Shown one piece after another: positions 831 through 62,540 of a DNA stretch of 64,000 nt. This DNA is from Papaver somniferum. Its lineage: Eukaryota > Streptophyta > Magnoliopsida > Ranunculales > Papaveraceae. Numbering within the stretch: the stretch's first letter is position 1; each line of letters starts with the position of its first letter. Made by a program: the position numbers and the translations under genes. The stretch is from positions 238,494,777-238,558,776 of the forward strand of contig NC_039364.1 of assembly GCF_003573695.1 (NCBI RefSeq), written 5' to 3'. Below the pieces are notes generated by a model. It worked only from the letters and a program-made list of their open reading frames with translations, was not told where the DNA came from and made no database searches.

Positions 831-910
831 ATGTAAAAGTTAAATTTTATTAATTAAGTAATATAGTATAATAAGTTTACAATTTCATTTTTCTCGAACT
901 TCTTATTATT

Positions 911-938: not shown

Positions 939-1182
939 TTTCGAACTTCTTATTATAATTGGGCTGACATATGTTGATTTTTTTTTGATCTTTGCTTCCT
1001 TTACTGAGGTATGACTGTTGTGTTATAAACTTTGCTTATATATCTAACCCGAGCTTGAAGTAATTTTTCCAAAACATCTCAACTTCTAACATTATGTTTT
1101 CTGCTTTCCAAAAAATGTTCATACTTATCTTATTAATTATATCTACGAGTTGAGTATTCTTTTATACTTCAAGAAAATATAT

Positions 1183-1407
1183 TCTATATATTATATAAAG
1201 GGAACACCCTTTACTGTAGCACTTTGAAGATGCAAAATATTTTGGACGATTTTACCCCTACATCATACTTTTAAAAGAAATATATAAAAATCAAATTTAG
1301 GACATATTGGTAATTTAGTTTAAGAACAGAGAAGACAAGAAAAAATAACTTTGTTGAAAATGGACATAGACCAATTTAATTCTTTTTGCACGTGCGGAAC
1401 ATTCTAG
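1183..1407 (+). mobile_element. Small Helitron-like insertion (225 bp)
   Basis: Copy B runs straight from AGAAAATA to AAAATGGAAAG, while copy A carries this extra block. It begins TCTATATATTATATAAAG, ends GGAACATTCTAG and is followed by T. TC at the 5' end and CTRR at the 3' end followed by T are Helitron hallmarks, and no target duplication is visible. The self-complementary GCACGTGC lies about 10 nt before the end. One weakness: the base before TC is T, not the usual A. The insertion is well supported; the Helitron class is an inference. Confidence 0.55.
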
Positions 1408-1486
1408 TAAAAAAAATGGAAAGCCCATAGAGGCTAGTCAACTTCAACAACAATTGTGGAACAAGGCGCACAAGTTGGAATGGGAG

Positions 1487-2507: not shown

Positions 2508-2656
2508 TAATAGAGGGTAAGTGTAAGACTTGGGCTCCAAAATATTTATGTGCCAACCACTCCACCTATGGATCTAGGAGCCACTAGCGTTAGAAAAACA
2601 AAACTAAAGCCTGGGTTCCCAAAAGTGGGAAATGGTTGGGATCTGGGTGGGGAATA

Positions 2657-4113
2657 TCTAAAGACGTAAAGGCCTAGACAAATAAAACTTCCACGTTGAA
2701 CGGTGAGGAAACCCTCGCTTCTTATTGGCCGACATAATTATTTTTGAGTTTTGTGAAACGAGCGTTTTCGTGAGGACACTTGACGACTTACAATTGGTTT
2801 AAAAAAGGATATACAAACTCAAAAACGGAAATCATAACTTACTGAGTTACTGTGTTTAGAATTGTGTTTAGATTTTTGCGTTTCCTGATATAAACGTGTT
2901 TCCTAACTAGGTATGTTTTTTTCTTTCTCATCTATTTGTTAACAGGTACATGAACGAGAATTCTCAACTAGGTATATGTTTTTTCTTCGTCTCTATCCTC
3001 TTTGCGTTCCACGTTCTGTTTTTTGTTGTGTGTAATTTTGAGATTTCGATGATTTGTCTTATGCATTCAGGTCATGCACTACAACTGTAGCTTTCCAAAT
3101 GCATTCTAGACTGAAAGTACAGTGGTTTGAGTTCGTGCCGTACTGATTCATAATTTTCGTGTACCATTGAATTGTTCCAAGGAGATTGGTCGGATATCTG
3201 TGTAGAGGCTAATGCGACAAGCTACACTCCGGAAACTAAACTGCTACATACAAAGGCAGGTCTTGCATGTGTGCCTTCACTTTCCCCCTCCCTATCTTAT
3301 CTATGTTGTATATACATTTTTCTGGTGAAAGTACGTTTGTTTATGGAATTATATAGATTTTGCTGAAGCTTTATTAAGGGACATTCATTCTAATTGTGAA
3401 CTAGATGAATTATCCTCACCATCAGCTTGCGGTCACTTCTCATTTGGTGAAACTGGATTCAATGAAATGTTTTTGGTTGCACTTTGTCGTTTTTTTTGAC
3501 GTTTACACTTTACATGCTGATTGGTATGTTACATTTACCCGGCCTTTCTACTGGAGCTTCCCAAGCTTTTCGAAAAAAAAAAGAAATTCGTGCCGAAAAC
3601 AAAAATAATAACAACTCTATTTAAGGTAAGGAAGCAAAACTTGATGAGCTTTCGAGTTAACACAATGACACCAAACCTTATTGCATCCAATCAACTGCCT
3701 GACTATTGCAGCGGATCAAACTATTAAGTTGATTAAAAGAATTTGGAGTCCGAACCAATACGTATTGAGCAAAGGAAGGAAATATTAAGAAAAATAAAAA
3801 AAAATCCTATTTAAGGTATTAAGGAACCACAAAGATTCCTAACCTTATTGGAATCTTAATGTATTGAAGAGACCAAAATTCTTTTTTTCAGATAAGATTG
3901 ATGTATTTTCCCCACCACCAAATCAAAATTATATCTCCACGGGGTAGGGCGAAGTTCCGGGCGCACAACAAATTAAAAGAGCATCGTCATGGGGCGGGAC
4001 GAAGCCCCATGCAAACCAAATCAAAAATAAATCTCTGCAGGACTGGGCGAAGCCCCTCGCCACGGAGTTAAAAGAAAAAATATGCCCAGTACGTAGCACG
4101 GGCACAAATCTAA
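2657..4113 (+). mobile_element. Non-autonomous Helitron (1457 bp)
   Basis: Copy B contains the uninterrupted target GAATATAAATATG. In copy A the element sits exactly between A and T of that target, without duplication. It starts TCTAAAGACGTAAAGG and ends GGCACAAATCTAA, giving the diagnostic 5' TC and 3' CTRR. A hairpin TGCCC-A-GT ... AC-GGGCA (about 4083-4103) precedes the 3' end by about 8 nt, as expected for the Helitron termination signal. No Rep/helicase frame is present. The interior has several short frames and the repeated motif GGGCGAAG(C/T)CCC at about 3945-4060. Around 2940-3260 the sequence looks exon-like, but I do not recognise a source gene. Confidence 0.88.
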
Positions 4114-4488
4114 TAAATATGTATTCCAGGTGGTCAATCTCTCACTCTCTCTTCATGCGTATACTTTATCAGGCATCATTCATCCCCAAGTGCCATTGCC
4201 TAGTATGGGATAGGAAGAGGACCACCAGTCCACCACACTTCACGAAACCACCACCCAAAACACTAGTTTAGAGGTTCAAAAAGTGCACTGTGCACACCTG
4301 ACACCACATGGGGACACCAAGGCAAATAACATACAAAATACCCCAGATAAACTCCACTTTGCGTCCAACTCCTTGTGTTTGTTTTGTTGCCTTCACCCTC
4401 TAGTTATTTTTTTGGCAAGAAGAATATACAGTTCGCATTTTTTGTTTAATAGTTATCCTGGACTTACTTAGCCGATTTTCCCAAACTG

Positions 4489-4910
4489 TGGCAATTTCGA
4501 CAAGGCACTACGCACACTTCAATTTAGATAATGCGAGAATGGATTCGTCAGTTCGGGAGATCAGAAACTGTCGAGGGACACGACAGGAACCTTGATCAAG
4601 CGATTCAAGCCCCAGCACATTGTAGTGGGATACAACTTTTTTGGTGACAGAAAAAGTTTATGGATCGAGATTATAATGAGGTGGCACACAAGGTATGCAA
4701 AGGTGCACAAATAAGCAAATGGAAGTATCTAAAGCAATTACAAATCAAAGAAGAAATCCCAAATTAAAGAATATGCAGGACCTTTTGGATAGAAGTACTT
4801 CTACTTCATGTTACAAATCATCCATTTACGATAAGACAAAATGCAGCATAATTTACCATGAACCCCGTGTTAGGGATTGACAGCATCATTGGCTCGACCA
4901 AGACATAAGG
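4489..4910 (+). pseudogene. Decayed copy-A counterpart of the unknown coding-like segment
   Basis: This matches 13518-13970 of copy B, which holds an open frame beginning MSTRHYAHFNLDNARKDL. Here the start is altered (ATTTCGACAAGG instead of ATGTCGACAAGG) and small indels break the frame near 4545, 4600 and 4650. The family is not recognised. Confidence 0.55.
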
Positions 4911-5008
4911 ATTAGTCTCACATTGAATTCCCAGAGCACCGAGTTAAGGATCCTTCAAATGGTATCACATTCACAACCAGGACTACCAAGAGGGTACTAT
5001 TGAGTTTG

Positions 5009-6034
5009 TAGGAATTACTGTTTAATTTAGTTTTTCATGACCCAGTTAATGGCTAGTCCATCCGTGAAAAACATTTACTCCCTAGTTCAAAAATATATTT
5101 TTGGACTAAATTATTTACTCGCTAGTCCAAAAACTTTGTGGAGATTATAAAGTGTGTTTTCTAAATGCCTAAAACACCCTTCCAGATCTAATTAGTATCA
5201 ACACATGTAAATGTTACATACTAGTAATATCAATATGGTGATACTACATATTGATATGTACTATACTAGTAGTAACAAAAATATGTTACTAGCAAATTAG
5301 GTAACTACTTTACTAGTATACTAGTAAAGTAAACTAGTTTACTAGTAGTAACTAGTAGTAATATGTAGTATCAATATGTAGTAACTAGTAGTAATATGTA
5401 GTAACTAGTATACTAGTATCCTACTAGTAGTAATATGTAGTATCAATATGTAGTAACTAGTAGTAATATGTACTAACTAGTAGTAATATGTAGTAACTAG
5501 TAGTATACTAGTATATTAGTAGTAACTAGTACTTTACTAGCAGTTATAACATAACAATATTAATATGTAGTATCAATACATAACATAACAGTATTGATAT
5601 GTAGTACATAACATATTGATACTACATATTGATATGTAGTATCAATACATAACATACAAGTATTTATTTATATGTAGTACATAACATATTGATATGTAGT
5701 ATCAATATATAACATAACAGTATTTATTTATATGTAGTCATAACATATTGATACTACATATTGATATGTTACATATTGATATGTAGTATAAATACATACT
5801 ACTAATAACATACTAGTAGTAACATACTACTAGTATGTAATAACATACATACTACTAGTAACATATGTAGTATGTAGTAATATATGTAGTAACATACATA
5901 GTGTTATATGTTAGGGTTAGTAGAATAATTTTACTCTTTTCAAAACTTTTTTGGACTAACGAGTAAATATATTTTCCCGCTGGACTAGCCATTAACCCGG
6001 ATCGGGTTTAATGGACTAAATAGCAAAGTTCTCG
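5009..6034. mobile_element. MULE-like TIR element with ACTAGT-rich core (1026 bp)
   Basis: The insertion is absent from copy B (GGTACTATTTAGTTTGGG is continuous there). Imperfect 9-bp target duplications flank it: TTGAGTTTG at 5000-5008 and TTTAGTTTG at 6035-6043. Long imperfect inverted arms are visible: GGCTAGTCCA near 5050 pairs with TGGACTAGCC near 5980, and GTTTAATTTAG near the left end is echoed by TGGACTAAATAGC near the right. A 9-bp duplication points to Mutator-like elements. No coding capacity. Confidence 0.75.
5165..5905. repeat. Low-complexity ACTAGT / ATGTAGTA array
   Basis: The core of the element at 5009-6034 is a degenerate run of short words (ACTAGTAGTAA, TATGTAGTATCAAT, ACATATTGATA) in both orientations. 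It is rich in local palindromes such as ACTAGT and ATACTAGTAT and can fold extensively. No gene. Confidence 0.85.
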
Positions 6035-6190
6035 TTTAGTTTGGGCCCGAAATGGGCCAATTAGACAATCTGTCGGTCCTTACGGAAAATTGGAAACGAA
6101 ACTTACGAGCCAGATTATTAATTTTCTTATGGAACCAAATTTGGAGCATAGACTGTAAATTCGATTTAATAAGGAATGCTCGGCTTTCGT

Positions 6191-6389
6191 TGTTCTTTAT
6201 CTTTATTTTTCTTTCGAAGTGACCCTAAGGTCTGTAAAGTCGCCCTATGTTGATGCCAAACTAGCAGGGTAAAAAGTAATAACAAGAAGGCTTTGCTCAT
6301 TGGGCTGGAGAATATCTGACATGGTACTAAGAGGCAGTGAGTGCGCACAAGTTTGTGGACTATGTACCGTTCTTTCGATACTTTAATAT
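6191..6389. other. Intergenic, nothing recognised
   Basis: Sequence after the duplication edge and before the TRIM. No convincing reading frame and no repeat ends. Confidence 0.5.
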
Positions 6390-6872
6390 TGTGAAGGAGT
6401 AGTCCCACGTTGCTTAGACCCGTAGTCTAGATCCTTATATAAGTTGTATGGGCCACTCCACTCATTGTCAATTGGTTTTGAGTTGGAAGCCCATACACTT
6501 GTTTAATATGGTATCATAGCTAGGTAGGCACGTCAAATGGCGTGACCCATATTAGTCAAATCAAACGACGTATGAAGGCCCACGTGTAGAGCCAAGTCAA
6601 ACGACTTAGTGCCCTACACGTGAGGGGACGTGTGACAAACGACGTACGAAGGTCCACGTGAAGAGCCAAGTCAAACGACTTAGTGCCCTACACGTGAAGG
6701 TCCACGTGTAGAACCAAGTCAAACGAATTAGTGCCCTACACGTGAGGGGGAGTGTGAAGGAATAGTCCCACATTGCTTAGACCCTTAGCCTAGATCCTAT
6801 ATATAAGTTGTATGGGCCACTCCACTCATTGCTAATTGGTTTTGAGTTGGAAGCCCATAAACTTGTTTAACT
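6390..6872 (+). mobile_element. TRIM (miniature LTR retrotransposon)
   Basis: Two direct repeats of about 119 bp, 6390-6508 and 6753-6871, begin TGTGAAGGARTAGTCCCAC and end CTTGTTTAA. Directly after the first is TGGTATCATAGC, a near match to the initiator-tRNA-Met primer binding site (TGGTATCAGAGC). Directly before the second is a purine run (GTGAGGGGGAG). The 240-bp interior cannot code for protein. It contains three versions of an AGTCAAACGA...TTAGTGCCCTACACGTGA block (about 6582-6750). A target duplication was not clear. All functions for movement must come from another element. Confidence 0.85.
6509..6520 (+). promoter_or_regulatory. Primer binding site of the TRIM
   Basis: TGGTATCATAGC immediately follows the left LTR. 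One base differs from the common plant initiator-Met site. Confidence 0.8.
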
Positions 6873-7145
6873 CTTTGAGTAGAGTTTACAAGGAAACCGT
6901 TTTCTTATTTGGTAAGTTACAGTACGAGTAATTGTTTGCTATGAGTTTATAAGGAAATTGTTTCCTTATTTGGTAAGCTATGTAATTGGAATTCCAATAT
7001 GCATGGGTTTGGTGTTCTATCAGTAAATAGTACCCCTTGATTAGCAAGGTTCATATTTGCGTGTGTGTGTATATATATGCACATAACGCCCCAACCTTCA
7101 TCTTGTATATTGCAATAGCTATAAAGAATTAAAAACAAAAAGCAG

Positions 7146-7871
7146 AATGACAACGTTGGGGAGCCTTTACCAGACATATTGATCGCTCGGTTCAGATGTG
7201 TATGCAAACACTGGTATGAATTCCTCAAAAACCCTGAGTTTGTTACGATTAAGATGCATCATCAACATGCTTTGGAAAACAACAAGTTTAGTGTCCTGCT
7301 TGAATCATGTACGAACGATCAATATTACGTAAAGGATGGCAACTTTTATACCATAGATTTTAATGTAAAATCCTCATCTTACCATATGGCGGTTAAAGAT
7401 GATACCCATCCTGTATTTGATCCAATTATAGATGATGGTGATCCTCTACTGGGTATTGTTTCATGTGACGGTATAATCGACTTACTTGACGTTGAGGATA
7501 AAATCTTCTTGTGGAATCCATTAACCTGAGAATACACGTTCATAAAACATCACGAATCCTTTAACAAAAACTCATATTCCAGGTATTGGATTTGTTACGA
7601 CTGGAAAATTGATGATTACAAGTTGTTCTTGATAGTTGATGGCGATGGTTTTTCTGAAGTTTGGGTTAATAGATTAGGTTCAAATTCATGGAATAGAATT
7701 GGAGACATACCTTATGATATGTTACATATTACGTTTTCTGTGAAGCCTTTAAATGGAATTATTCACGGAGTGAGAAACTATGAAGTTATAGTTTCGTTCG
7801 ATATGGTTGAAGAACGAACCTTAAAAGAACTCCAAATACCCAGTTGCTATCTAGAAAAAGGAGTTTATTAG
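7146..7871 (+). pseudogene. F-box / F-box-associated protein pseudogene, fragment 1
   Basis: The frame around 7150-7230 reads GEPLPDILIARFRCVCKHWY, the tail of an F-box motif (FRCVCK.W), so the N-terminal part of the F-box is missing. Downstream is an F-box-associated region: VSCDGIIDLLD, IFLWNPLT, ICYDWKIDDYK, NSWNRIGDIPY, GIIHGVRNYEVIVSFDM. An in-frame TGA at 7527-7529 stands where the second copy (38005-38015) has CGA, so it is a nonsense mutation. Past it the same protein continues to 7871. A normal family member (an SCF ubiquitin-ligase substrate receptor) is about 350-400 residues; this has about 240. It is not expected to be functional. Confidence 0.85.
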
Positions 7872-8259
7872 TGTAAACGGAAGAGCCTTTGTCAACAACT
7901 GAAGATATATTTTTACCAAAGATTGAATAGAGTGGTTACCAAACAGTTTCATTCCTTTGATGTTTGGAATAGGATCTAAAGGAGTAGTGATTCACGTGGG
8001 TGACTCTAGAAGTCGAAGGCGCAGGGATACTAAAAAAACTAAGTAGCTAGGGTAGTCTACTTGGTCTCAACTGTACGAAGTTGGCATTAGATTTTGTATA
8101 ACGGCTTAATTCTGAGCGTATTCAAAACTGGACTAGGTCCCAGGGTTTTCCTGCATTTGCGGTTTCCTCGTTAACAAAATCTTATGTTGTGTTATTTACT
8201 TTACTTCCTCATTATAATTATTGTATATTATAATAAAGTAAATACACTTATGCATTAAT
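7872..8259. other. Downstream flank of the F-box remnant, no gene
   Basis: This may include decayed C-terminal or 3' untranslated sequence of the F-box gene. No intact frame and no element ends recognised. Confidence 0.4.
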
Positions 8260-16289: not shown

Positions 16290-17404
16290 ATGGCGACAAA
16301 GTATGAGATTGAGAAGTTTGATGGAAGGAATGATTTCAATCTATGGAGGCTAAAGATGAGGGATGTTTTGGTACAACAAGTTTTGGTGAAAACTTTGAAA
16401 GGGAAAACGGCTCTAGCAACAACATTGACGGATGAAGCAAAGGAAGAACTCATGGAGAAAGCACATGGATTAATTTTGTTGTGTTTAAGCAATGAGGGCT
16501 AAAGATGAGGGATGTTTTGGTACAACAAGTTTTGGTGAAAACTTTGAAAGGGAAAACGGCTCTAGCAACAACATTGACGGATGAAGCAAAGGAAGAACTC
16601 ATGGAGAAAGCACATGGATTAATTTTGTTGTGTTTAAGCAATGAGGTCTTGAGAGAAGTTGCGACGTAAACGATCCCGGACGGGCTATGGAACAAGTTGA
16701 GGAAAAGATACATGACTAAATCCGTGACTAGCCGTCTTTATCTTAAGAAGAAATTACATACTCTTAGAATGCACGAAGGAATGTCTATTATAGATCATAT
16801 TGATGATTATAATAAAATTCTTGGATTTGGCAAATATTAATGTCAAAATTGAAGATGAAGACCACGCATTAGGTTTGATTTGTTCCTTATCACCATCTTA
16901 TGATAACTTTGTCGATATCGTAATGTATGGGAAGAATACAATTTCCATGGAAGACGTTAAGACGGCTTTGAACTCTAAGGAGTTAAAGAAGACGGGTATT
17001 GATGGTAAAGATAATTCGGGAGATGGATTGTTTGTAAGAGGAAGTGGAAAACAAAAGGGTGGATTTGATAGGAGTAGATCAAAGTCATGGTCTAAATCTA
17101 AATCCGGTAAATTCTATTGCTTTCATTGTAAGGAACAAGGGCATTTCAAGAAGGATTGTCCAAAAAGGAAGAATCTTGAGAAGAATACAAGCCAAGGCAC
17201 CACGGCAAACGTTGAATTAGAAAGTGATGATGGAACGGTTTTCACGGTTTATACTGAAAGCTCGGATAATGGGTGGATTCTTGATTCGGATTGTACTTTT
17301 CATATGTGTCCTCATAGAGAATGGTTTTCTACTTATCAAGCTCGAGAAGGTGGTAAAGTTCTTATGGGAAACAATGTAACTTGTAAAGTGGTGGATGTGG
17401 GTAC
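16290..17404 (+). pseudogene. Copia gag and start of protease, broken
   Basis: ATG at 16290 opens MATKYEIEKFDGRNDFNLWR, the copia gag start. A 149-bp tandem duplication (unit starts 16350 and 16499) shifts the frame. An in-frame TAA follows at 16667-16669 and another shift near 16820. From 16830 the frame continues through SLSPSYDNFV to a CCHC zinc knuckle (CFHCKEQGHFKKDC, about 17119-17160). The protease begins WILDSDCTFHM at about 17273: the catalytic D-S/T-G is D-S-D, so the site is mutated. The frame is then cut by the minus-strand LTR element at 17405 and resumes at 26995. Confidence 0.92.
16350..16647 (+). repeat. 149-bp tandem duplication in gag
   Basis: Both units start CTAAAGATGAGGGATG and end TTTAAGCAATGAGG. 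They are identical as far as I can read. 149 is not a multiple of three, so the second unit is out of frame. Confidence 0.95.
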
Positions 17405-47568: not shown

Positions 47569-48239
47569 ATTGGGGGATATCAAAACTAATTGGGGGATAG
47601 AGGAAAAGGACAAAAACTGGATCCAAATATCTAATTATTTTTTTAATTCCTAATCTACCCCTCACTAATCAGGTTTAGTGTTTAATTATACTTAGGAAAA
47701 TCATAAGATTATTTGATAAATGATTAGTGTATTATTTAGTTTTGGGTGAGGTGAGATTGAAGGAGGGAAAAAATTTAAGAGGGATGTTTTTTTGGTGAAA
47801 ATGGTGGATGATAGTGAAAAGAGAATTACTGCTGAATCTTTAGCTCAACTATAAAAAGAAGTTTTTTCTTTGAATTCTCCATTTTTTTCTCTGGAAAAGC
47901 TCGGTGTCGGCATAAAAGAAGTATGAATACCATGCCGGCATATGTTGGAAATTTTCATAAATGTTTGCCTCTACGAGAAAATTGAATTTCAGTCCGTTTT
48001 GAATTTTTTTCTGGTTTTCAGTCCACTGCCGGCACAGTCAGTTAATTCTCGAGCATGCCGGTACAGCTATCGGCATGGTATGTTGCTTGAATTTATTTGC
48101 CGGCACGTGATGTAAAGTATCCAGAAACTTGAAAAAAAAATTCACTCGAGTACTGGCATTGATACATCTCTATCGAGCATGCTAGCACTTAGTTACGACA
48201 TTGAATGTTCACTACGGGAAAAATCATCATTGACGACAC

Positions 48240-49000
48240 AAGATAAGCGTTGCAGTACCCCTACGACAACTCCATTTCATGCATTGTGGAACGGGGGTAT
48301 TGTATAAAGTCCAAGTTTTTCTACAATGGTTGACAAGTGTTGTAAAGGGTGATGTGATTCATGGTTCGACAATAGTTTGTCAATGTTGTGATTCTATTTC
48401 GATTTTTTTTGATAACCTAACACAACTCTTGCTTGTATTGTAGAACAATCGTGGACAACATAGCATATCGTAGAAACATATGCAACAACAATTACCAGTA
48501 TTATGAATAATATTTGCACAACACTTGTATGAATTGTCGAACTATCTTGGAAAACACAAACTTATGTTGTAAAGTAACTATTTCACAATATCTAGTTTAT
48601 GTCGTTGAAAACCTTTTCACGATGTCATTAGTATTGTGAATACTCCTCTCACTACACTTCCTTGAGTTGTATAACTATTCTGAACAACACCTGCTGATGT
48701 TGCAAGATTTCATTTTACAATGATTGTGGTATGAAGTAGAAATTGTTAACACAACACTTACTAGTATTGTGAATATTACAGTCAGTACACTTGTTAGCAT
48801 TGTAGAACATTTGTTTTTACAATTATTGTCATGGGTAGTAGAAATTTTTAACACAACACTTATAAGTATTATGAATATTACAGTTAGTACACTTGTTAGC
48901 ATTGTAGAAGTACCTTGATACAACTATACTATGTGTAGTAGGACTATCTTGGACAACACATAGTTATGATTGTAAATAAACTATTTTACAATACTTGTGA
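48240..49000. repeat. CACTA left subterminal repeats
   Basis: Words such as CAACACTTG, TTGTAGAAC, TATTGTGAATA and GTTGTAAA recur many times in both orientations. In En/Spm elements such regions bind the TnpA product. Two near-identical units start at about 48736 and 48838 (period 102 bp). Confidence 0.75.
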
Positions 49001-49258
49001 ATAAGATCAAACCCATATTTCAGAATATATATTTCACTTTTGTCACTACTATTTGTGAAATGTAAAGAAACAACTAGATTAAACTGAAATGTAAATAAAC
49101 AATTGGATAAAACTGAAAGATTCATTCAAATTAAACCAAACCCAGAGTTAAAGCATTCACATACCAATGTGATATACACAAAACATACAAAAAAGTGGCA
49201 GTGATATGTTTGTTACCAAAAATTAAGTCTCCAAAAAGATCACAGAAGATTAAGAAGT

Positions 49259-51834
49259 CTATTGGTAGATTATTTTATCTTTGGGCCATGTGATAAAATT
49301 TGAAACAACATCATGTACAGTTCTGACTTCTGAAGTAGCTTGGAAGACAAGAGCATAATCCACATAAGAAACCTTCACACATACAGTGTAGTCTCCAAGA
49401 CCGATTGGTTTTCCATGTATCTGCTTACTTGGATCTGTTTCAGCAATTTCAGCCTCTGCAACCACGTCGTCCTCCTTGTACCAGCTTAACAACTTGCAAA
49501 CTTGGAATCTCTTTGGCACTTGAACCTCATTTTGTTTCCTGACATGACTTGGAGTGGTATCAGTTGAGTCTCTTTCATTACAGATAACATTTATGCTAGT
49601 GCTAGCCTCATGATTGTTGCTGGGACTTAACATGTGAGAGGGTAAGACTCCATTGCAGACACATTTTGATTTCGTTCCCTATATTAAGACCAATCAGCAG
49701 TAGGAGGGGCATTATCGAGTTTGAGTTTATCAAGAAAAGGAGACCTAATAAAAGACAAGTTAAATTCTCACCTCTAGCTGCACCACTCGATCAGTCAATG
49801 CTTTATAGGATTCTTGACACTCTTTAATCATCATCTTATAGTGGGACTGCGCAACAACCTTTTTACGTGTCGCTCCAAAAACAATTCCTTTAAATCTCCC
49901 TTTAGTTTTCTTGTCCTCACCAAAGGCCTTTGCAAGAATATCATCTGTCACGGATGATCCACAATCAGCATGATACTTTTCTCGAGCTTTTTCAAGTTTT
50001 TCCTGTGTAAGCGTGTAAAACATCAGATATTTTTGACTTTTTCAAGCACACACAAATAAAACAAAGTAACATGAGAATATTTCTTACCAAAGCTTCTACA
50101 ACACTAGGCTGTGGTTTCTTTCCTTTGCGTTGTTTATGACCAACTTTCCAGATTATAGCTCTATCAATCTCTTTGGTTGTGTTTTGCTCTTTTTGCTACC
50201 AAATAAATGTATCAATACATGAGTCATCAAGAATAGCATAACAACATGGTATTATCTCAGAATATTTCTAAGATAAAACTTTGTAGAGAACTTCAAACAA
50301 TTATATTTTTAACGATGCAATAGCTTTCACATGGTGAATATCAAGACTGTAGAACATACCAATTTCACCTCCAATCGGGCGTAACCTTCTCGACTTATGG
50401 TATGTGGGGTGGTGTGTTTTGAACGATTTTCTTGCATTTTTATTCTTCTGACCTGAATAGAAAAGTAAAAAAATCATTTGACAGACTTTAGAGTTTTTAA
50501 TACAAATATATAGGCATTTTATATAATAGAAATTACTTACTCTGAATTCAATAGAGTCTACATGTTTCACAAACTCTTCCCACTCCCTAACTGTCATGGT
50601 CCTAGGCATTAACTTCTCCAGCCGTTTATTTTGTTCTTCCCCTTGTAGCCGATCCAAAGTGTCGAGTACCAAACCAGCTTTCCTTGACCTTGCTTCTCTA
50701 AGATAAGTTCCCATCTTGCTGAAATAATAGTCTTTGTAATACTCAGGCACAATGAATCGGTTCTACAAATAAATTTAAATAATTGAATTAGAATACGCTA
50801 TGAATTAAATAATTTTTGACTATGACTTAAATAATTATTGACGAATGAAAAGAGTTAAATAGTTATCAATTGCGAACCGAGACTATCTTCCATATGTTTT
50901 CTTTGGCTTCATAAGGGACAAGTCTCCAATCCTTGTACGTTAATGGAAGTTTCCGAACAAGCACCCCTAGCACACTGGAAAGTTGCACAGATGGATCACC
51001 AATCGGTTGTTCATTAGCATTGAAGGAAATTGTTCTTTTCGGATCAGCAGAATCTAACTTCAGTGCATACATCTGGGTTGGACCACGTGGAACATATTTT
51101 CTTTTCTTCGCTTCTTTTCCTTCTTCACCTTCCTCATTATCATCATTACCATTATCATTTTCTTCTTCCAATTCAGGCTCATCACCATTACCATTATCAT
51201 TCTCTTCTTCCACATCAGGCTCCACATGATCAGAGTTATCCTCTTCCACAGCTTCCTCCTCCTCTTCTTCTTCTTCTTCATCTTGAAAATCTGCGAGAGT
51301 GTCGTGTGGATCCGTAAGTTGAACATTCAGACATGGGCCTATGCTGCTTGTGTCAAGTTTCCGCTTTACATTCTTTCGCCCCACTCCAGATTTTTCAGTA
51401 TCTCCTTTAGAGCTTTTTGATTGGGACTTTGTAGTTGTGGTCTGTGAATGTTGAGCACTTTCAGATTGCACATTCTTCTTCCCAGTAGCCTGTCTCTTTG
51501 TAGTTGGTGATGACATTTTAGCACTTTCAGGTTGTCGACTATGCTTTGGAGTTGTTGCACATTTAGTTAGAGAAGAAACAGCAGCACTTGGTTCTAACTT
51601 CTTGTTCCTTGGTGATGATCGCCTACTTTCAGGTGGAAGGGATGGTTCTGCAGATGGAGAACCTTTATCAGTTTTGGACTGTTTGTTTTTCATCTGCAAC
51701 AACAATGCGTATATGTTAGTTAAAATGATATGGTGAATAAATTTATTTACACTGAAATTGAGATGAGAAGCCTTTACCTGTATGGCCAACTCCCTGACCA
51801 GCTTTTTCTTTATTGTTTCCTTGTTAGTCTTCAT
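49259..51834 (-). CDS. TnpA-like accessory protein of the CACTA element (Ptta/En/Spm type)
   Basis: Seven coding exons, all in phase 0 with GT-AG introns: 51834-51778, 51693-50878, 50762-50541, 50452-50360, 50195-50088, 50002-49772 and 49678-49259; 1947 bp, 648 residues, no internal stop. The N-terminal half is basic/Ser-rich, then strongly acidic (an Asp/Glu run about residues 150-220). The conserved part reads RGPTQMYALKLDSADPKR, LGVLVRKLPLTYKDWRLVP, FIVPEYYKDYYFSKMGTYLR and HTTPHTISREGYARLEVKL, the pattern of the plant Ptta/En/Spm transposase-24 family, with a C-terminal CVKVSYVDYALVF region. Family knowledge: this DNA-binding protein acts on subterminal repeats with TNP2. It looks intact. 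A further 5' untranslated exon may end at about 51848. Confidence 0.85.
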
Positions 51835-53065
51835 TATTGCAGTTATGCCTTGCAAAAATATAATCACAGTGGCTAAACTTCATGCTTTGGCACAAATATA
51901 ATCAAATCATACACCTAAAGAGAATAAGGCTACACCTATCAAATCACAAATTCTTACGAATTCTAAATTATACTTCATGCATCACAGTGGCTAAACTTAT
52001 GCACTAGTACTCCACATATCTTTGCTACTACAATTATTACACTAAAGCTGTAGTCATGAGCCCATGAAGAGCACCTCCCCATTAACATGATTTTTTATTC
52101 CCTGTTGCTAATGGGAATCATGGCCATCTAGGGTTCTCTGTATTTGCTAATTGAAAGATGAAGAGAGGGATTGGAAATAGGAAGGAATAAAAGGGGGGAT
52201 TTTTTGTTATAACACAGAACAAAGACCTAAAAAACTAGAACATGAGCTGCAGAGACAATCATCGAAATGAAAATCATCATAAAAAGACCTAAAATCGAAA
52301 ATTCCCAAAACTAAATAGGACCCAATACCAATTTCATCATGGAAACAACAAATCCTAAATTGCATGTGAAGAAAAAAAAACTCAAAATTACTAAAATAGA
52401 AAACTGGAATAAAGAGATTTATTTTCTTAAGATTTGAGAGTATGAGAGATTACCCCTTCATGAAATCGTTTTCTTGAAAATTTGTTAGGGTTTTCTTCAA
52501 AGTTGAAGAGCTCTGAGATTAATAGATAGTTATGGTTTTCTGAAGAGTTTGAGTGATTGAGAGATTGTTAGGGTTTCCTGATGAGAGATTGTTAGGGTTT
52601 TATGATGAGAGATTGTTAGGGTTTTCGGATAAGAGATTGTTAGGGTTAGAGCTTCACAGTTGCAGACATGGCGATAGGTGAGAGATTTTTTTCTTTTTTT
52701 TTGGTGAGAGAGTTTTCTTATTTTTGTGAAGAGTGAAGAGAATAATGATTTTGGGCGCGTTGTGAAAATACTGGGGGGAATTAACATGGGATAGGACACG
52801 TTGCAGTGGTCAAACATTAAATATTGTCTGAAAATTTCTTGGGCAGACACGTGACCAAATTTGGGCGGGATCCGGGGAGGGAAAAGTGGAATATTCTGAT
52901 TGGTCTACGCAAAAGCATACGGATTGGCAAAGAAACACAATTTTTGACAAATAAACACAAGATTCCCACCGTTAGATTTAGTAGCAGTTGCTTCCCCTAA
53001 CTTTGGTACGTTGGATTAAACAAAATTACAAAAAAAAAAATTGGTGGTAACACTCTAAGTAACAT

Positions 53066-54677
53066 AGGTATAACCTGGCTCCGAGCTCGAAACCTGGCGG
53101 TAACTGGTAAGTGGACTATTCTAAGTCAGAGACTTCGTAAAAACGATGAATACGTCTATCTATAAATAATATCGGTGCCATTAGAATATTCCTCCAACCC
53201 TTAAACCTGTCCGGTTTTGGAAACTTCGAGATATAACATGGCTCCGAGCTCGAAATCTGGCGGTGAGTGGACTACTCTAAGTTAGAGACTTCATAAGAAC
53301 GATGAATCTGTCGATTCATAAGAAAGATGCTTTCATAATATTCCTCCAACCCTTAAACCTGACCGGTTTTGGAAACATCGAGACATAACATGGCTCCGAG
53401 ATTGAAACATGGCGGTGAGTGAACTATTCTAAGTCAGAGACTTCATAAGAACGATGAATCTGTCGATTCATAGGTAAGATGCTTTCATAATATTCCTCCA
53501 ACCCTTAAACCTGACCGGTTTTGGCAACTTCGAGAGATAACATGGCTCCGAGATCGAAACCTGGCGGTGAGTGGACTACTCTAAGTCAGAGACTTCATAA
53601 GAACGATGAATCTGTCGATTCATAGGTAAGATGCTTTCATAATATTCCTCCAACCCTTAAACCTGACCGGTTTTGGCAACTTCGAGACATAACATGGATC
53701 CGAGATCGAAACCTGGCGGTGAGTGCACTACTCTAACTCAGAGACTTCATAAGAACGATGAATCTGTCGATTCATAGGTAAGATGCTTTCATAATATTCC
53801 TCCAACCCTTAAACCTGAACGGTTTTGGCAAATTCGAGACATAACATGGCTCCGAGATCGAAACCTGGCGGTGAGTGGACTACTCTAATTCGGAGACTTC
53901 ATAAGAACGATGAATCTGTCGATTCATAGGTAAGATGCTTTCATAATATTCCTGCAACCCTTAAACCTGACCGGTTTTGGCAACTTCGAGACATAACATG
54001 GCTCCGAGATCGAAACCTGGCGGTGAGTGGACTACTCTAAGTCAGAGACTTCATAAGAACGATGAATCTGTCGATTCATAGGTAAGATGCTTTCATAATA
54101 TTCCTCCAACCCTTAAACCTGACCGGTTTTGGCAACTTTGAGACATAACATGGCTCCGAGATCGAAACCTGTCGGTGAGTGGAATACTCTAACTCAGAGA
54201 CTTCATAAGAAATATGAATCTTTCGATTCATAGGTAAGATGCTTTCATAATATTCCTCCAACCCTTAAACCTGACCGGTTTTGGCAACTTCGAGACATAA
54301 CATGGCTCCGAGATCGAAACCTGGCGGTGAGTGGACTACTCTAACTCAGAGACTTCATAAGAACGATGATTATGTCGATTCATAGGTAAGATGCTTTCAT
54401 AATATTCCTCCAACCCTTAAACCTGACAGGTTTTGGCCACTTAGAGACATAACATGGCTCCGAGATCGAAACCTGGCGGTGAGTGGACTACTCTAACTCG
54501 GAGACTTCATAAGAACGATGAATCTGTCGATTCATAGGTAAGATGCTTTCATAATATTCCTCCAACCGTTAAACCTAACCGGTTTTGGCAACTTCGAGAC
54601 ATAACATGGATCCGAGATCGAAACCTGACGATGAGTGGACTACTCTAAGTCGGGGACTTCGTAAGAACGATGAATCC
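53066..54677. repeat. Tandem array, 11 units, 152-bp period
   Basis: The anchor (A)TGGCTCCGAG occurs at 53075, 53238, 53390, 53542, 53694, 53846, 53998, 54150, 54302, 54454 and 54606. The last nine intervals are each exactly 152 bp; the first is 163. Units include GAACGATGAATCTGTCGATT and CCTCCAACCCTTAAACCTGA and differ by only a few percent in the centre; edge units are more divergent. Lies between the two genes of the CACTA element. No coding capacity. Confidence 0.97.
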
Positions 54678-56493
54678 AACCATATACTGGGAATATTCCT
54701 TTGGAATATTCTATGTATATCATCACATCATAACCACCCATTCATTTAATTTTTAATTATATTTCATCTACAGCCGTTAAGTTTTTTTTTTTTTTTTTTT
54801 TTAACATCATTCTCATATCTATTCCTTCCTTATCCTTTTCTTTTTTTCCCTCAACTGCATCTCCCCAGTGTGTTCGACGGAGAAACTTCACCTCAAACCA
54901 CCATTACTCAAACCACCATCACTCAAACCACTTCGGTACAGCAGCACCTCCATCACTCAAACCACTGACAACTTCATCGTCTACGACTCCAACAGCTCCG
55001 TTCATTACCATCGTTTTTAACTTCATCGGTCTCAGGAGATTACTTCACCAAATTCATCATCACCACACAATGTTGAAGATCGATCTGTAACCCATATCTT
55101 GACTAACCACCTCCACCAATTTCCCGAAGTTGAAGATCGATCTGTAACCAAAGCTCACTTTAGGGTATATTGTTTCTTTGATTTTTGAATTAGGTTTTTT
55201 CAGTGACTTTTTTGCATTAAATTTGAGTAGTTTGCATTAAATTTTGGTAGTTTGCATTAAATTATGTTCTTTTTGTGATAATCAACACAGAACAATATGG
55301 GTTTGGTTTAAAATTTGATTAAAATCAACAATATGGGTAGTTTGCTCCTTTCTTATTTGCATGACAGTAATGAAGAAAAGAGGGTTTCATGATTCTAGAG
55401 AGTTTTCAATTGGTCCATTTGTGTGTTCTCAGTTCAATTTTGTTCTGATCCAATGTAGATGTGATGTGATTGCTTGTCATCATGAATTTGATGACAGTAA
55501 ACATAACAAGTCTTTTAGGAGATTTGGCCCTTGAGATATAAGACTTCATCAAAACTGAAAATTGTAGGTTCGCAGTTCTGTGACCTATTCTGCGGCATTT
55601 TTGCGCAGACTCTTGCTGTTTACTTTGGTTTTTAATTTTAATTTTCCCCACGTCGAAGCATATAACGTTTCAAATTGTGAATGATATGAGGAAATGTTCT
55701 CCTGATTTGTCTGATTGATGTTATATAAATTTCATGCGACTGTGTTTAGTGACTTTTCCCTCATACTGCTTGCCGAATAAGAATTGCCTGCTCCAATGTG
55801 TTGAATGTCTAGAATTAGTACTCACATATGTAGTTCATTGAAGGGAAGTTGAACTGGATTAACTAGTATTGACATATGTTGTCTAAACAGTGCGAATAGT
55901 TTGTTTGAAGGACTTGATTTCAATTTGATTGGCCAGTTTGTCTAAAGCTTTTCCTGTGTAGGATGTAGAGGCACTCTTAGTAGCAAATGGTTATACATGT
56001 GGCCTGATGTACTCAATTTAGACGAGGCTGGTTATACTAGTTAGAAATGTATCTACATACATAAAAAACTAAACAAGGTGGTTGTTATATGCTAGCTAAA
56101 TATTCATATCAGTACCTCACTCTGGAATATGTATTCTCAATCCCCTTTTTGTATATGTAAATATCTTATGATTTGTTAATCCATTGTGGTTACTTATGCT
56201 GGTTATCATATTTTGATTGCGCTAGGTGCCATTAATCTTTAATAAATTCAACATTCCAACCAAAGAAGTGGCTCCAGTGTTGGTTGAGAAGGGAAATTGA
56301 AAGGTTTTTTTTAACTGGATTGAAGAACTGAACAGATTTGCAGATTCAAGTCATTCAAAATTATGAATAAAGATTGGGTTCATTAGCCAAGGTTAATATG
56401 TTGTTCACTGTAGAATATTACATTCTTTACATTGGTTTTCCCTCTTTTATTGTGTTATTCCGTGATTAATTATTTCGTCGTTCTTTCATGTAG
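54678..56493 (+). other. 5' region of the CACTA transposase gene
   Basis: Contains a poly-T run (54783-54803), a CTCAAACCAC(C/T) repeat (about 54890-54965), and a thrice-repeated GTAGTTTGCATTAAATT block (about 55227-55265). This is probably promoter, untranslated leader and introns of the transposase. No recognised coding exon; the short frames are not supported. Confidence 0.5.
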
Positions 56494-59400
56494 GGGTGAT
56501 CTTCCATATCAGGAGGCCTTGAAGAATTTCATAGATACCGTTTGTCAGAGACTTGAAAATCCTTCTGAATTCAGTTGTCCTTGTGTTGATTGTAAGAATC
56601 TCACTTTCCCACTTCCTCCGAAAGAAGTGCATCTTCACTTGCTGAAATGAGGTTGGGATCCTACATACACTGAGTGGGTTTTTCACGGGGAGACTATACA
56701 CACTTTTACTGATGTACACCAAGTGGGAGCAACAAGGGGATCATATCATATAAATGCTGTTTTTGAAGATGATGCACATATCGATCAGGGACATGAACCT
56801 GTGCAAGATGAGGGTTTGGAAAACCATGTGGAATAGGCGGACACACCGTTATATCCTAATTGTAAAACACACACAAAGTTATCCATCACTGTTGAATTGC
56901 ATAGGCACAAGCAGTAAATGGTTTATCTAGGAAATCTTTTGACGAACTTCTCAAGACAATCAGTTCCTTGTTGCCGCCAGATCATTGACTTCCTTGCTCA
57001 ACATATGAAGTGAAAAAGCTACTGAAATCTTATCAATTGACTTACCAGAAAATACATGCTTGTATTAATGATTGTTGTTTGTTTAGAAAAGATTTGAAAG
57101 ATGCAGACGAGTGTCCTAAATGTCATTATTCTAGGTGGAAAGCAGACACATCTAACATGGACGATGATGAAATGATAGACAAGCCGCAAAAGAAGATACC
57201 GGTGAAGGTGCTTAGGTACTTCCCCATTGTGCCGAGATTGAGAAGATTGTTTCAATCAGCAGCACTGGCTGAGCAGTTGATATGGCACACGACGAACAAG
57301 AGTAAGGATGGGAAGATGCGTCATCCAAAAGATTCTTTGGCTTGGAAGCACATAGACAAAAAGTATCCCGAGTTTGCTTCAGATCCCTGTAATTTGCGTC
57401 TTGGGCTTGCTGCTGATTGATTTAATCCATTTGGTGATCTTTCCGCATCCCACAGTTGTTGGCCAGTGATGCTCGTGGTTAATAATTTTCCCCCTCAGTT
57501 GTGTATGCAAGGTGTCAACATAATTCTGAGCATGCTAATTCCAGGAAAAAAACAACCGGGTAATGACATTGATGTATACTTGCAGCCCTTGATTGATGAT
57601 CTTTTTGAGTTGTGGGAGAAAGGGGTGCAGGTATATGATTCGTTTACTACAACATATTTTAACTTGAAGGCGTTATTAATGTGGACAATAAACGATTTTC
57701 CTGCATATGGTAATTTATCTGGATGTACGTATAAAGGGAAGGCAGCCTGTCCTCTTTGCGGTGAAAATACACTTTCAAACTGGTTGGCATTTAGTCGTAA
57801 AACTGTCTACTTGAATCATAGGAGATTTCTTCGTCATAATCATCCTCTTCGGCAGAAAAAGACTGGTTTAATGGAGAGATTGAGAGGAAGGAAAAGCCAC
57901 CTGTTATGTCTGGTGCTGCGGCACTTGAATGTCAGAATAGTATTACAAATGATTTTGGGAAAGCGGAGAATAACGAGGAGGAGATAAGGAAAAATAAAGA
58001 GCAAAAGAAGAAGAATAAGGGCAAGAGTAGTCGGGAGCAAGTGCAAATGTGGGTAATTCTAAATGTGGGAAGCGGAAAAGGGATGTTGTTGCTGATGCAG
58101 CTATTTCTGGTGCAAATGATGATTAAACTGAACTTCGGGTGTTTAAAAAACGGTCAATATTCTTCGACTTGCCTTACTGGAAGGTTAGTTCCATAACTTC
58201 AAACTTACTTGTTAATACTTGGCTATGGGTTCTTCTGCTTTGCACCATGTTAGCCTCTAAACTTCACATTATCAACAAATGCAATCTAAATGGCACACTC
58301 GTTCTTTTGATATAGTGTTTGGGAAGTATAATGCATCTGAGTACTTTTCCCAATGTGATAAAGCATCGGCAGCATCAGTTTGATTGCACCATAATTGACA
58401 CATAATAATATATTTTCAATATAATGAGCATTTTGTTTCTGTTTTTTTCAGCATGACATTATAATAGAATTAATTACTTACCTAAGATTCGACAGGATGA
58501 CATTATAACTTTCACATAGATTAAATGTCTGATCTTTTATTTCTTTATAGAATTAATTACTAATGTTAGGTTTTTCCATCTTCCTAGGATTTATTACTAC
58601 GACACAATATTGATGTTATGCATACAGAAAAAAATGTTTGCGAGAGTATTATTGGTACCATATTGAATATAAAGTCCAAAACAAAAGACGGTCTAAAGTC
58701 CCGCAATGATCTTAAGAGTATGGGAATAAGACCAGAATTACATCCAGTAGAGACAAATGGAAAAACGATCCTTCCACCAGCACCATACTGTTTAAATGAC
58801 AAGGAAAAGGCTATATTGTATAATAGGATGAGAAATTTAAAGGTTCCATATGGATTTAGTTCTGATCTTAGAAAGCATTTCTCAAAAGATGGTTGCTTAG
58901 GTGTTATTAAGGCTCATGATTACCATGTTCTTATGCAACAAATATTACCCGTTGCTTTGCAAGGACTTTTACCTGTAGGGCCAAGGGAGGCAATTTTCAG
59001 GTTATGTTCTTATTTTCACGAAATATGCCAAAGGGCAGTTGATCTCCATAGATTAATAGAACTTGAAGTAGAAGTTGCTGAGACTTTGTGTATGTTGGAG
59101 AGGTACTTCCCTCCGTCACTTTTTGATGTCATGATGCACTTGACAATTCACCTAGCTCGAGAAGTGCGATTATGTGGACCTGTACAATATCGTTGGATGT
59201 ATCCATTTGAAAGGTATGCCAATTTAATTTATATTACTTCTGTTTTTTGGTTTCGTATAGAAAGTTATGCCCTTTGTATCTTAGAGATACTAATATTTAA
59301 TTAACTAGTAACTGTTGCATACTCGACTTTCCTAGGTATATGAAGACATTCAAAGAATATGTAAAGAATTATGCACAACCTGAAGCTTGTATATCCGAGT

Positions 59401-60668
59401 GTTATCTTGGAATGGAGTGTGTTAGGTATTTTGATATTCGTAAGGCCCAAGCAGCTGAAACAGGAGTAAAGCAAAGGCGTAACGAAACACTCAAAATGGT
59501 TCCACACCGGCAGCACGTCCTCTTTCTAAAGGTGTCCAAGTGCGTATGGATAGTGAGAAGTTAAAGATAGCTCACAGATATGTGCTTTTTAACACACCCG
59601 AAATTGACCCATATATGATGTAAGTATGATGTTCACGTTTATTAAAAATGGTCTGTCAATTAATACTTCATTTTCTAATTTTAATTTTGTCTTAGAATGC
59701 ATATGGACGAGTTAAAATCTCCTGCTGGGAGGGAAATTACTAGTGAAGACCAACTCAATTCCATACAGTCTGACACATTTGCAGATTGGTTTCAACAAAA
59801 GGTATGTTTAGTCCACTCTTAGTCAGATTATGCATCTTAGTATAGTTTAAACACTTGGACATTTTGCTTCTGCGGAAAACTACTACAAAAAACACAAATG
59901 CGTGTGATTTTGTTTCATTATATCACATAGAACAATCCATGTTAGGCACACCATCATATAAATCTAACTTCTTATGCTTAAATAACAAATTTAGTTATAT
60001 TCTTATGTCCTGAGATTATACATTTGTAGGTTAAGATGCAAATTGAACAAGGCATGCCAATATTACACACGGTAGAATGGTTGTCATATGGGCCGTTAGA
60101 AAACTGCATATCATATAAAGTCTTGCTTATCAATGACACTAGGTTTATTACGAAGGATGTTAAGAGAGTCACACAAAACAGTGGAGTTTCAATTGAATCA
60201 ACAACCTTAGTTGCAGGATTGTCAGAAACTAGTGGGTTCTACGGTGTTTTAGAAGAAATTCTATTGTTGGACTACAATCATATGTTTCAAATTCCAATAT
60301 TCAAATGTGATTGGGCTCACACCAATTTTGGTGTGAAGGTAGAAGATGGCTTTACATTAGTCAATTTAAACCAGCATAAGAACCAATACTGTAACGATCC
60401 ATTCATTTTATCAAAGCAAGCGCGACAAGTTTTGTATTCTCGAGAGTCAAATACATCTAACTGGTATGTGATGGTGAAACCACCGCCTAGGGGTTTCCAT
60501 GAATTAGAGGAATACAATGAAAAGCATGACACAAATTTCCAACCAGTGGATACTTCAACTCTTGGTTTCCAAATGGATGACGAGAGCGAGAGTTACTTAA
60601 GAGAAGATGGGGAATATACCATAGTGGTTCCGACAAAAAAGAAGAAGAAAAAGAAGTTCACAAGTTAG
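56494..60668 (+). pseudogene. TNP2-like CACTA transposase, decayed
   Basis: Order of recognisable parts: transposase-associated domain (56500-56720, SCPCVDCKN ... WVFHGET); TNP2 core (57010-58190, with CPKCHYSRWK, HPKDSLAWKH, FNPFGDLS, PGNDIDVYLQPLIDDL, WTINDFPAYGNLSG and CPLCGENT); LLRHNIDVMHTEKNVCE at 58587; DUF4218 (58740-59220, HDYHVLMQQILPV, HLTIHLAREV, YRWMYPFERY); and a DUF4216-like end (60036-60668). In-frame stops at 56648, 56834, 56986, 57418 and 58124 and shifts near 57855 and 59500 destroy it. Canonical introns remain (for example after TTGCCTTACTGGAAG at 58185 and GTATGT at 59802). TNP2 catalyses cut-and-paste; this copy cannot. Confidence 0.92.
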
Positions 60669-61640
60669 ATCAGTAGTTTATTGTTTTTACGGTATTGTAT
60701 TCTTACTTTAGCAATATTTGGTGTTATTTGCCTTCTCGGTAATCTACTTCAACTGCTATTCTCAAGTTTCTTTCTACAGCTGAGTGTGTAGTTCTGTATG
60801 AGTTATTAATTAATAGTGCAAGATCTTTCTTTGTGAAGTATGCTTCTATTGAGAATGAGTATGGAGCAGTAGTTGCTATCACTCGCCACTTCTATGGATA
60901 TTTGATGTATCCATGCTACTGCCGCACATGGGGTGTTTTTTTCCTGATATCAGTATTGCAGTGTGTGCTATGTGACTGCGCGTATTGGCTTGTGTATTTA
61001 TCACTTATCAAACTCTATGTTCTATTGTTGGTAATTCAGGGATGCTTTTGTTATCATCATTTGTGTGTGAATATCGGTTTGGAGATGGTAATGTTTTTCA
61101 GAAACGTGCATAGTGCAGACCACTGTTCTCATATGTACAGGTTTGCAGGTTGTAAGAATGCAGCTTGCATACTCTGGTTGTATTTTCTTTACTAATACTA
61201 GTATTTTTCTTGCAAAAAGACAGTTAACAGCTCCATTTGTGTGCTTAGTTATAAAATGCTAGCTCTGTTACTTTTATAACACCATTTTTAACTCCGCCAA
61301 TGTAAATGATATATCATTTCATTGTCGGTCTCAAGGCCGGATGAAGGAGGAGAGAAAATGAGACATTTCAGTTGTTATTGTTGTTATATTTGCCCACTTA
61401 AATTCTGCCTTGGTCTCGACTTGTGCATATTTTCTCTACATCTGCTTATATTCGTATATATATGCTCCCTCCCTTCTAACTTATAATTTGATGGTATACT
61501 TTTGCCATAATTCCCCAGTTGCATGCTTTGCTTAAAGTGGGTGGTCTTATAGAATGTATGTGATTATTTACAGAGAAGAATGTATATGGTTACAGAGAAT
61601 GCTTCGCGCTCTTTGCGGCTCAGTCGCCTTTGAGCATTAT
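60669..61640 (+). other. 3' region of the CACTA element, no gene
   Basis: Transposase 3' untranslated region and non-coding sequence. A 120-codon Cys/Tyr-rich open frame at 60833-61195 has no family match and is not believed. Confidence 0.5.
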
Positions 61641-61649
61641 ATTTTGTTT

Positions 61650-62220
61650 TACAACGCTTATGAAGGGTTGTCATAATAGTATATTAAAGAATCACCAACT
61701 TTACAGAACTTGTGATAATGTAGGTATGGTTAGTGGTGTAGACTTCCATATAGGAGGCTCAAGGTCGAATTCCCCAAACCTAATTTTTTCCCACATTCTA
61801 TATTTTAACTTCAACAACACTTATAAGTGTTGTTATACGTTTCTATTAAAAAAAAAAAAAAAAACCTAAACTTGTGAACTGTAAGGATGGTTGATGAGCT
61901 ATACATCCATGCATTAGGTTCATGTTCGAATCTCCCCTCTAACGTATTTTTCATTATCATATTTTTGTGTTCTTCAACAACACTTGTGAGAATTGTGATA
62001 GGCTAAGTCACTACACTTATGAAACAAAGTTTTTATACCTAAATGTCGTCATAAAAATTTTGCTAAAGGAGTTGTCGTTTTTTTTCTTAGCGCAACCCCT
62101 TGTTCCTAAGGGTTGGTAGTGATGATATACGACAACTCTTTCTTTGAAACCAGTTGTAAAACATAGGACTTTCTACGATGTATAGCGAAGTGTTGTAAAT
62201 CTCCAGTTGTAAATGTATAT
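61650..62220. repeat. CACTA right subterminal repeats
   Basis: Repeats of ACAACACTT, GTTGTAAA, GACAACTCTTTC and CAGTTGTAAA in both orientations, mirroring the left end. Confidence 0.75.
61813..61834. repeat. Perfect 22-bp palindrome
   Basis: AACAACACTTA followed by its exact complement TAAGTGTTGTT. Two subterminal-repeat words placed head to head, so probably a paired binding site. Confidence 0.95.
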
Positions 62221-62260
62221 TTTTCCCATAGTGGTTAGTTACCAAGCATGATGGCACCAT

Positions 62261-62540
62261 TTTCCGGCATGGTCTTTATCACTTCCGGCATGGTCTTCAT
62301 CACTTCCGGCGATGTAAAAAAATTATTTCTGACATGGTCTTCATCACTACTGACACGGTCTTCATCACTTCCGGCATAGTCTCCATCACTACCGGCATGG
62401 TCTTCATCTATACCGGCATGGTCTTCATCACTTCTGGAATTTTTTCATCACTTTCGGCATGGTCTTCATCACTTCCGGCATGGTATTCATCACTTCCGGC
62501 ATGATCTTCATCACTTCCGGCATGATATCCATCACTTCCG
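62261..62540. repeat. 21-bp minisatellite (CCGGCATGGTCTTCATCACTT)
   Basis: About 12 degenerate copies with interruptions near 62310 and 62435. In the right arm of the outer TIR element. Read on the minus strand the unit gives a seven-residue period (SDEDHAG-like), but there is no sign of a gene. Confidence 0.9.

Follow-up and report, generated by a model that had tools for sequence, protein, structure and literature searches.

Internal tandem repeats of several classes of mobile element other than the CACTA transposons have been described as sources of satellite DNA (PMC12628747, PMC12477314). Among CACTA elements, those of quinoa (Chenopodium quinoa) are described as holding a 171-bp satellite array, with 32.5 monomers in the described copy, which lies near the 3' end and outside the coding part and is interpreted as captured (PMC8978399), and the CACTA-like element Jozin of Chenopodium is associated with the CficCl-61-40 satellite, whose 40-bp monomer stems from a piece of tnp2 (PMC7320549). 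In the VANDAL elements of Arabidopsis, the target repeats of VANC lie in non-coding regions, where they are reported to expand, contract and change together, and they are bound by this element-encoded anti-silencing protein (PMC5735166, PMC10398659). A satellite has likewise been linked to the foldback transposon Tetris of Drosophila virilis (PMC4079207) and, in Lathyrus, satellites are described as arising from tandem repeats of LTR retrotransposons (PMC7004042, cited in PMC12477314).

We report a computational analysis of a 152-bp tandem array that lies inside a CACTA transposon of Papaver somniferum, within a window of 64,000 nucleotides (contig NC_039364.1, positions 238,494,777 to 238,558,776 of the forward strand), by which we mean the whole stretch of DNA analysed and to which the positions given below refer. 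The quinoa and poppy arrays are alike in being internal, head-to-tail arrays of a satellite-sized monomer, present in several copies and accompanied by further arrays elsewhere in the genome; they differ in that the poppy array is situated between divergent genes, stands directly beside its flank at 39 of 40 scored places and spans 5.6 to ~167 units in one genome. Jozin, as described, also ties a CACTA family to the birth of a satellite, whereas the poppy unit is non-coding, intergenic and without a significant match in the element parts tested. VANDAL elements are of the MULE type. They are not CACTA elements, and their repeats are described as protein-bound, but they have in common with the poppy family non-coding tandem repeats in a DNA transposon, the gain and loss of units and joint evolution between related copies. 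The published descriptions of Tetris and of the Lathyrus retrotransposons resemble the present case in making mobile-element repeats a source of satellites, though in other element classes and at other repeat positions. A search of the literature by title and start of abstract, poppy, CACTA and satellite among its subjects, found no description of this array, and what sets it apart from the known cases is its site between divergent genes, its near-universal presence in scored copies, its graded sizes and its edge units, which record exchanges.

The host is a CACTA (En/Spm, CMC) element of 14,024 bp (48210..62233). It has the inverted ends of that superfamily, CACTACGGGAAAAAT at 48210 and CACTATGGGAAAAAT at 62233 on the reverse strand, a 3-bp target duplication (GTT) on both sides and a tnp2-type transposase, and its left subterminal region (48210..49000), the side that was analysed, holds the short degenerate repeats usual in CACTA elements, here ACAACACTTGT-like (families D10, D11 and D14). 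CACTA-type ends are alike in 14 copies, which were chosen because their left match begins at base 1. The second CACTA gene, of the Transposase_24 or Ptta-En-Spm type, occupies 49262..52640 on the minus strand, with exons between 51879 and 49262 and a putative leader to ~52,640; its hand-joined exon translation matches PF03004 (E=1.8e-8, 35.1 bits, cut-off 28.7), and its single frames give sub-threshold matches, such as PF03017 at E=0.1. The tnp2-type gene lies on the plus strand at 56414..60665 and carries PF13963, PF02992, PF13960 and PF13952, the Transposase_21 domain (PF02992) being matched at E=7.3e-65, and its frame is broken by stops at 56648 and 56834, so that the window copy is probably not autonomous. 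The two genes are divergent, one on each side of the array, and the closest recognised coding frame is ~1.2 kb away from it on the left side and ~1.7 kb away on the right; judged from this layout, putative divergent promoters would flank the array, and its right flank (54678..55459, plus strand) may comprise the promoter and leader of the tnp2 gene. Both ends, the GTT duplication and the PF03004 and tnp2 domains confirm the proposal of the earlier note that the array lies inside a CACTA transposon, between its two genes.

Further repeats were seen in the window. A 24-bp repeat of 3.8 copies with TTAGGGTTT motifs lies at 52558-52647, in the putative leader of the minus-strand gene, and a 21-bp tandem array of ~13 copies (62262-62540) starts 28 bp past the element's right end; similar CCGGCATGG motifs occur to the left of the element, which may therefore sit inside another repeat. 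A 149-bp segment is duplicated in tandem without a mismatch (100% match) at 16348-16646, which points either to a very recent event or to an effect of the assembly.

The array itself (53066..54677, plus strand) consists of 11 units, the first spacing being 156 bp and the next nine 152 bp, and its final unit is partial, stopping after ~78 bp. TRF reports it at 53070-54676 with a period of 152, 10.5 copies, 93% matches and a score of 2681, which, together with the unit alignment, bears out the eleven units and nine equal spacings first noticed. The exactness of the spacing had been taken to imply recent amplification, a claim that does not survive comparison of the units: the nine that were aligned differ pairwise at 2 to 14 of the 152 positions, and private changes, confined to a single unit, make up 32 of the 38 differences from their consensus, so that exact spacing is no sign of a recent burst in this array. 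Most units carry a perfect 7-bp inverted repeat (ATGAATC-TGTC-GATTCAT, first at 53302..53319). The single-strand folding of one unit showed no excess over shuffles, and a special fold was rejected. A coding reading was dropped, as 152 is no multiple of 3 and the longest frames have 50-62 residues. Likewise rejected was the derivation of the unit from another part of the element, no local alignment on either strand with six stretches of it (left 300, left 60, right 300, right 80 and both terminal kilobases) having reached p<0.05 against shuffles (best p=0.075). No clearly constrained stretch was found along the unit, and the rare changes concentrate on C and G. Patterns derived from the unit match the genome at 872 to 7,879 places and the reversed patterns at 0, and its recurrence is therefore not due to chance.

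The genome searched comprises 2,715,436,153 bases in 34,283 contigs, and the places scored were the best-matching candidates of each search, so that the figures of occupancy apply to the best-matching copies. The best 24 of 2501 array matches all lie inside copies of this CACTA family. The 782-bp right flank, a query free of array letters, yielded 107 candidates, and in 39 of the best 40 the unit adjoins the flank, as established by coordinates in 31 and by reading the junction in 8, one of which has a single unit followed by other sequence; the one place without an array (L036) is a copy truncated before the junction. All 40 scored matches to the left junction (best 40 of 1078) and all 40 to the right junction (best 40 of 1815) are full length within 5 bases, though both queries include array letters and are thus biased towards array-bearing copies. 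The left end of the element (48210-48710) has 546 candidate places genome-wide, of which the best 40 were scored: 31 are linked to the array, 3 more were linked by the 151-type search described below, one further is tied to it solely through a unit match 6.8 kb inwards, and for 5 no link to an array was established. The right end (61680..62233) has 672 candidate places, the best 40 of which were likewise scored.

Twenty other copies were read in the array region. All match the left part of the element, the longest block at 94.7-97.7%, and all hold an array of the same orientation in the same region. The fetched stretch includes the left end in 14 of them, and these have 14 different flanks, so the copies stand at different insertion sites; one other copy was read at both ends (L027 and L030) and has the target duplication CCT. 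A deletion derivative of 7.7 kb (C3:124146787-124154490) keeps the array. Counting against the explanation we favour, 4 of the 20 copies (L019, L022, L023 and L024) have altered sequence just left of the array, and in these the left-edge unit is missing or displaced. In L020 (C4:54.885-54.886 Mb), the start of the array and the adjoining left flank are duplicated within one element. The earlier note had suggested that an element with such an array could seed new satellite loci, an idea that depended on the unit being present beyond this copy; it is present both in other CACTA copies and elsewhere in the genome, and other copies have different numbers of units, from 5.6 to ~167.

The explanation we favour for these observations is that the array belongs permanently to one CACTA family and is inherited with it. 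A tandem block would sit fixed in the element between its two divergent genes; the number of units would change by unequal exchange (or slippage) of whole-unit blocks, with both edges of the array mostly staying fixed; the same exchange process would slowly homogenise the units within each element lineage; and cut-and-paste transposition would carry each copy's array size to new sites. We consider it likely that the array is inherited, resized, homogenised and spread in this manner and that the element thereby serves as a vehicle making and spreading satellite-scale DNA, some copies holding arrays of 12 to 25 kb, a judgement made on the explanation as a whole.

The sizes of the arrays and the units at their edges speak to the resizing. 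Across copies the array ranges from 5.6 units (847 bp) to ~167 units (25.4 kb). In the 33 arrays measured by coordinates, a count that omits those at C4:54.9, C2:52.18 and C4:28.8 Mb (start interrupted or not continuous) and at C5:196.95 Mb (interrupted), the number of units runs from 5.57 to 37.34, and its fractional part is.50-.65 in 22, as would follow from the gain and loss of whole units between edges that stay in place; the fraction falls outside.45-.75 in 7, which counts against this explanation. The first spacing is 156 in 15 of the 21 arrays read and 154 in one. The left-edge unit (53066..53228, plus strand) differs by ~4% from the edge units of other copies and by ~13% from interior units, and a 47-mer from it, with up to 3 mismatches allowed, matches 62 genomic places, all of them listed, some of which lie inside arrays. 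Copies of this unit also form unit 8 in L013 and unit 15 in L024, and another lies 12.6 kb inside the array at C7:94.0 Mb, a distance of 83 units less 16 bp. Such internal copies of the edge unit would be left by unequal exchange reaching past the edge of the array.

Homogenisation was followed in 402 units from 21 arrays, the interior ones diverging by 3.0% within arrays and by 4.0% between them. Neighbouring units resemble each other more than random pairs do in 7 of the 21 arrays (p<0.05; Fisher p=1.5e-9), and in the other 14, the window array among them (p=0.38), the likeness is not significant. In a tree of the left flank, seven copies form a young clade; their terminal branches measure 0.2-0.7%, and their visible arrays have 10 to at least 28 units. 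The units of this clade are mostly of type 2, defined by three linked variants, with remnants of type 1 in some arrays; other arrays are of type 1, and L026, which branches next to the clade, is a mosaic of the two. Type 2 has thus replaced type 1 in the young clade, along with the element lineage, and the tandem, non-coding repeats of the family show the concerted change between copies that is a feature of VANC-type targets.

The private substitutions themselves have an unusual composition. In plant transposons C>T is usually the leading change. Here, private C>A and G>T changes match C>T and G>A in frequency both in the units and in the left flank (48210-51649, compared with relatives), the flank having 55 and 54 of the former and 53 and 46 of the latter. 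This composition may reflect a mutation bias or a sequencing effect.

At the upper end of the size range are giant arrays that lie, by coordinates, next to parts of the element. A 58-mer of the type-A unit matches 872 genome places at up to 3 mismatches (reversed control 0), an undercount of the family, since type-2 units already differ from this pattern at 3 places; for this, the 151-type and the joint patterns the totals are whole counts and match positions refer to the first 100 places listed. The unit totals of the giant arrays come from coordinates in one assembly, 150 bases of letters having been read (L048, at C1). At C7:94.010-94.036 Mb, 25.4 kb or ~167 units separate the left-edge unit from the right flank, 17 zero-mismatch places among the matches listed keep nearly to register, and 7.55 kb further on lies the right end of the element. 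At C4:15.944-15.961 Mb, the matches listed extend in register over 112 unit steps (17 kb), with the right end of the element 6.8 kb beyond; the left-edge unit lies 10.7 kb past the last zero-mismatch place among those listed, and its distance from an internal edge unit, 13.2 kb or 86.6 units, is out of register, so that the stretch leading to the left-edge unit may hold other DNA. At C1:37.998-38.011 Mb, at least 82 units are in register between paired ends 28.4 kb apart. An edge unit and a right flank are 18.4 kb apart at C6:178.2 Mb, with no zero-mismatch type-A place between them among the matches listed. The head-to-tail monomers in many-unit arrays that characterise a satellite are thus found inside elements, in arrays of ~82, 112 and 167 units.

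The arrays at C4 and C7 share an 11-kb stretch of one giant array, which has since changed on both sides: within an overlap of that length, holding 73 slots, 12 of 12 zero-mismatch places among the matches listed agree within 1 bp, where simulation gave a mean of 2 and a maximum of 7, and beyond it 5 of 17 places at C7 and 11 of 23 at C4, again among the matches listed, have no partner. Since the shared stretch lies on different chromosomes, large arrays probably travel with the element; transposition is the simple reading, though segmental or whole-genome duplication could also account for it.

A second subtype of the unit was reached through a copy with a divergent unit (L049), which has 80% identity to the type-A consensus over its best 112 bases and 75% over its full length. 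The search with this unit (best 40 of 2472 scored) led to a subtype with a period of 151, represented at C5 by a monomer (L050) that shares 90% identity with L049 and 76% with the type-A consensus. A 58-mer of the 151-type has 4,237 matches at up to 3 mismatches (control 0), and a pattern fitting both types has 7,879. Arrays of the 151-type are found on many chromosomes (best 18 of 1100 scored, with the matches listed), including longer ones in several blocks at C5:180.72-180.89 Mb (among the best 18 of 1100) and, among the matches listed, long ones at C2:159.99-160.01 Mb (17 kb span) and C5:180.80-180.82 Mb and a run at C1:60.54-60.57 Mb that spans 32 kb, its intervals mostly whole units and two of them half a unit off. 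These run lengths (17 to 32 kb) derive from the spacing of matches, single units having been read, and they give a positive answer to the question, raised in the earlier note, of whether long arrays exist elsewhere in the genome. Four 151-type arrays among the best 18 of 1100 are of exactly 1,281 bp (C3552:19.76, C788:13.18, C2:145.37 and C10:162.74 Mb), a shared length that suggests that a single mobile carrier copied them; a similar-looking fifth array lies at C1:90.61 Mb. At C5:180.676-181.008 Mb, 151-type arrays are clustered within ~330 kb, possibly as a satellite domain or as many nested elements.

Two accounts of the origin of the array can be set against these data. On one, the CACTA lineage would be both birthplace and carrier of a dispersed 151-152-bp satellite, its arrays growing inside the element by unequal exchange to tens of kilobases, jumping with it to other chromosomes in units of 30-40 kb and remaining as satellite blocks while the element around them decays; we put this forward tentatively, as a possibility well short of an even chance. 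On the other, a piece of a pre-existing 151-bp satellite was inserted between the genes of the family's ancestor and has been carried since. The quinoa elements, described as having captured their 171-bp satellite (PMC8978399), provide a precedent, and the abundance of the 151-type (4,237 matches to 872 for the type-A 58-mer, itself an undercount), its arrays on many chromosomes and the absence of significant likeness between the unit and the six tested element stretches are all consistent with capture. The 151-type is, however, also found inside copies that share 97-98% identity with the window element at the left end, 4.1-5.3 kb inwards (C4318, C7:237.28, C6:5.35 and C1:224.25 Mb), the four 1,281-bp arrays resemble copies of a mobile carrier, and the long 151-type arrays, located by match spacing, may themselves lie inside elements. 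We regard capture as doubtful too, and as slightly less probable than birth in the element.

Whatever the origin of the unit, its present arrangement has competing explanations. The earlier note had offered unequal exchange or rolling-circle copying as the means of amplification, and of the two it is exchange that stands, on the internal edge units, the mostly whole-unit size steps and the likeness of neighbours in 7 of 21 arrays. A constant unit length and head-to-tail order would also follow from rolling-circle amplification, but the array is common to the family and has conserved edges, and the divergence of the window units, together with the edge units and neighbour likeness that in some arrays point to local exchange, led us to reject both a rolling-circle origin and a recent burst in the window copy; that recent rolling-circle amplification made this array is accordingly very improbable. 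That the array is an artefact of assembly is scarcely credible: the assembly of tandem repeats is difficult, and the giant arrays are known from one assembly, but arrays with private substitutions occur at dozens of sites, and the flanks read at 14 of these all differ. A role in cis, in line with the regulatory spacer that the earlier note offered as a possibility, deserves more weight, in which the array would act as a platform for a DNA-binding or anti-silencing protein of the element or as an enhancer of the divergent promoters. Its place between the two genes and its retention in the 7.7-kb deletion derivative are in keeping with such a role, for which the tandem target repeats of VANDAL, described as bound by VANC, offer a precedent (PMC5735166, PMC10398659). 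Against it, the unit has no clearly constrained stretch, its rare changes concentrating on C and G, it shows no unusual single-strand fold, and it is not significantly like the subterminal regions, which would be the binding sites of a TNPA-like protein; we judge the role unlikely. We infer that exchange is the mechanism and that the array is mainly a passenger of the element.

The birth of satellites has mostly been inferred from end states. One genome, that of the poppy, appears to hold a graded series of ~6, 10, 20, 37, 82, 112 and 167 units, all situated identically between the two genes and with edge units that record exchanges, and with such a series in one family, growth in place, movement and release become steps that can be tested. 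The position of the array beside the starts of two genes raises the question of whether it is tolerated or used. If the lineage is indeed the birthplace of the dispersed satellite, a single genome would display the whole course of events, from six repeats up to a satellite array.
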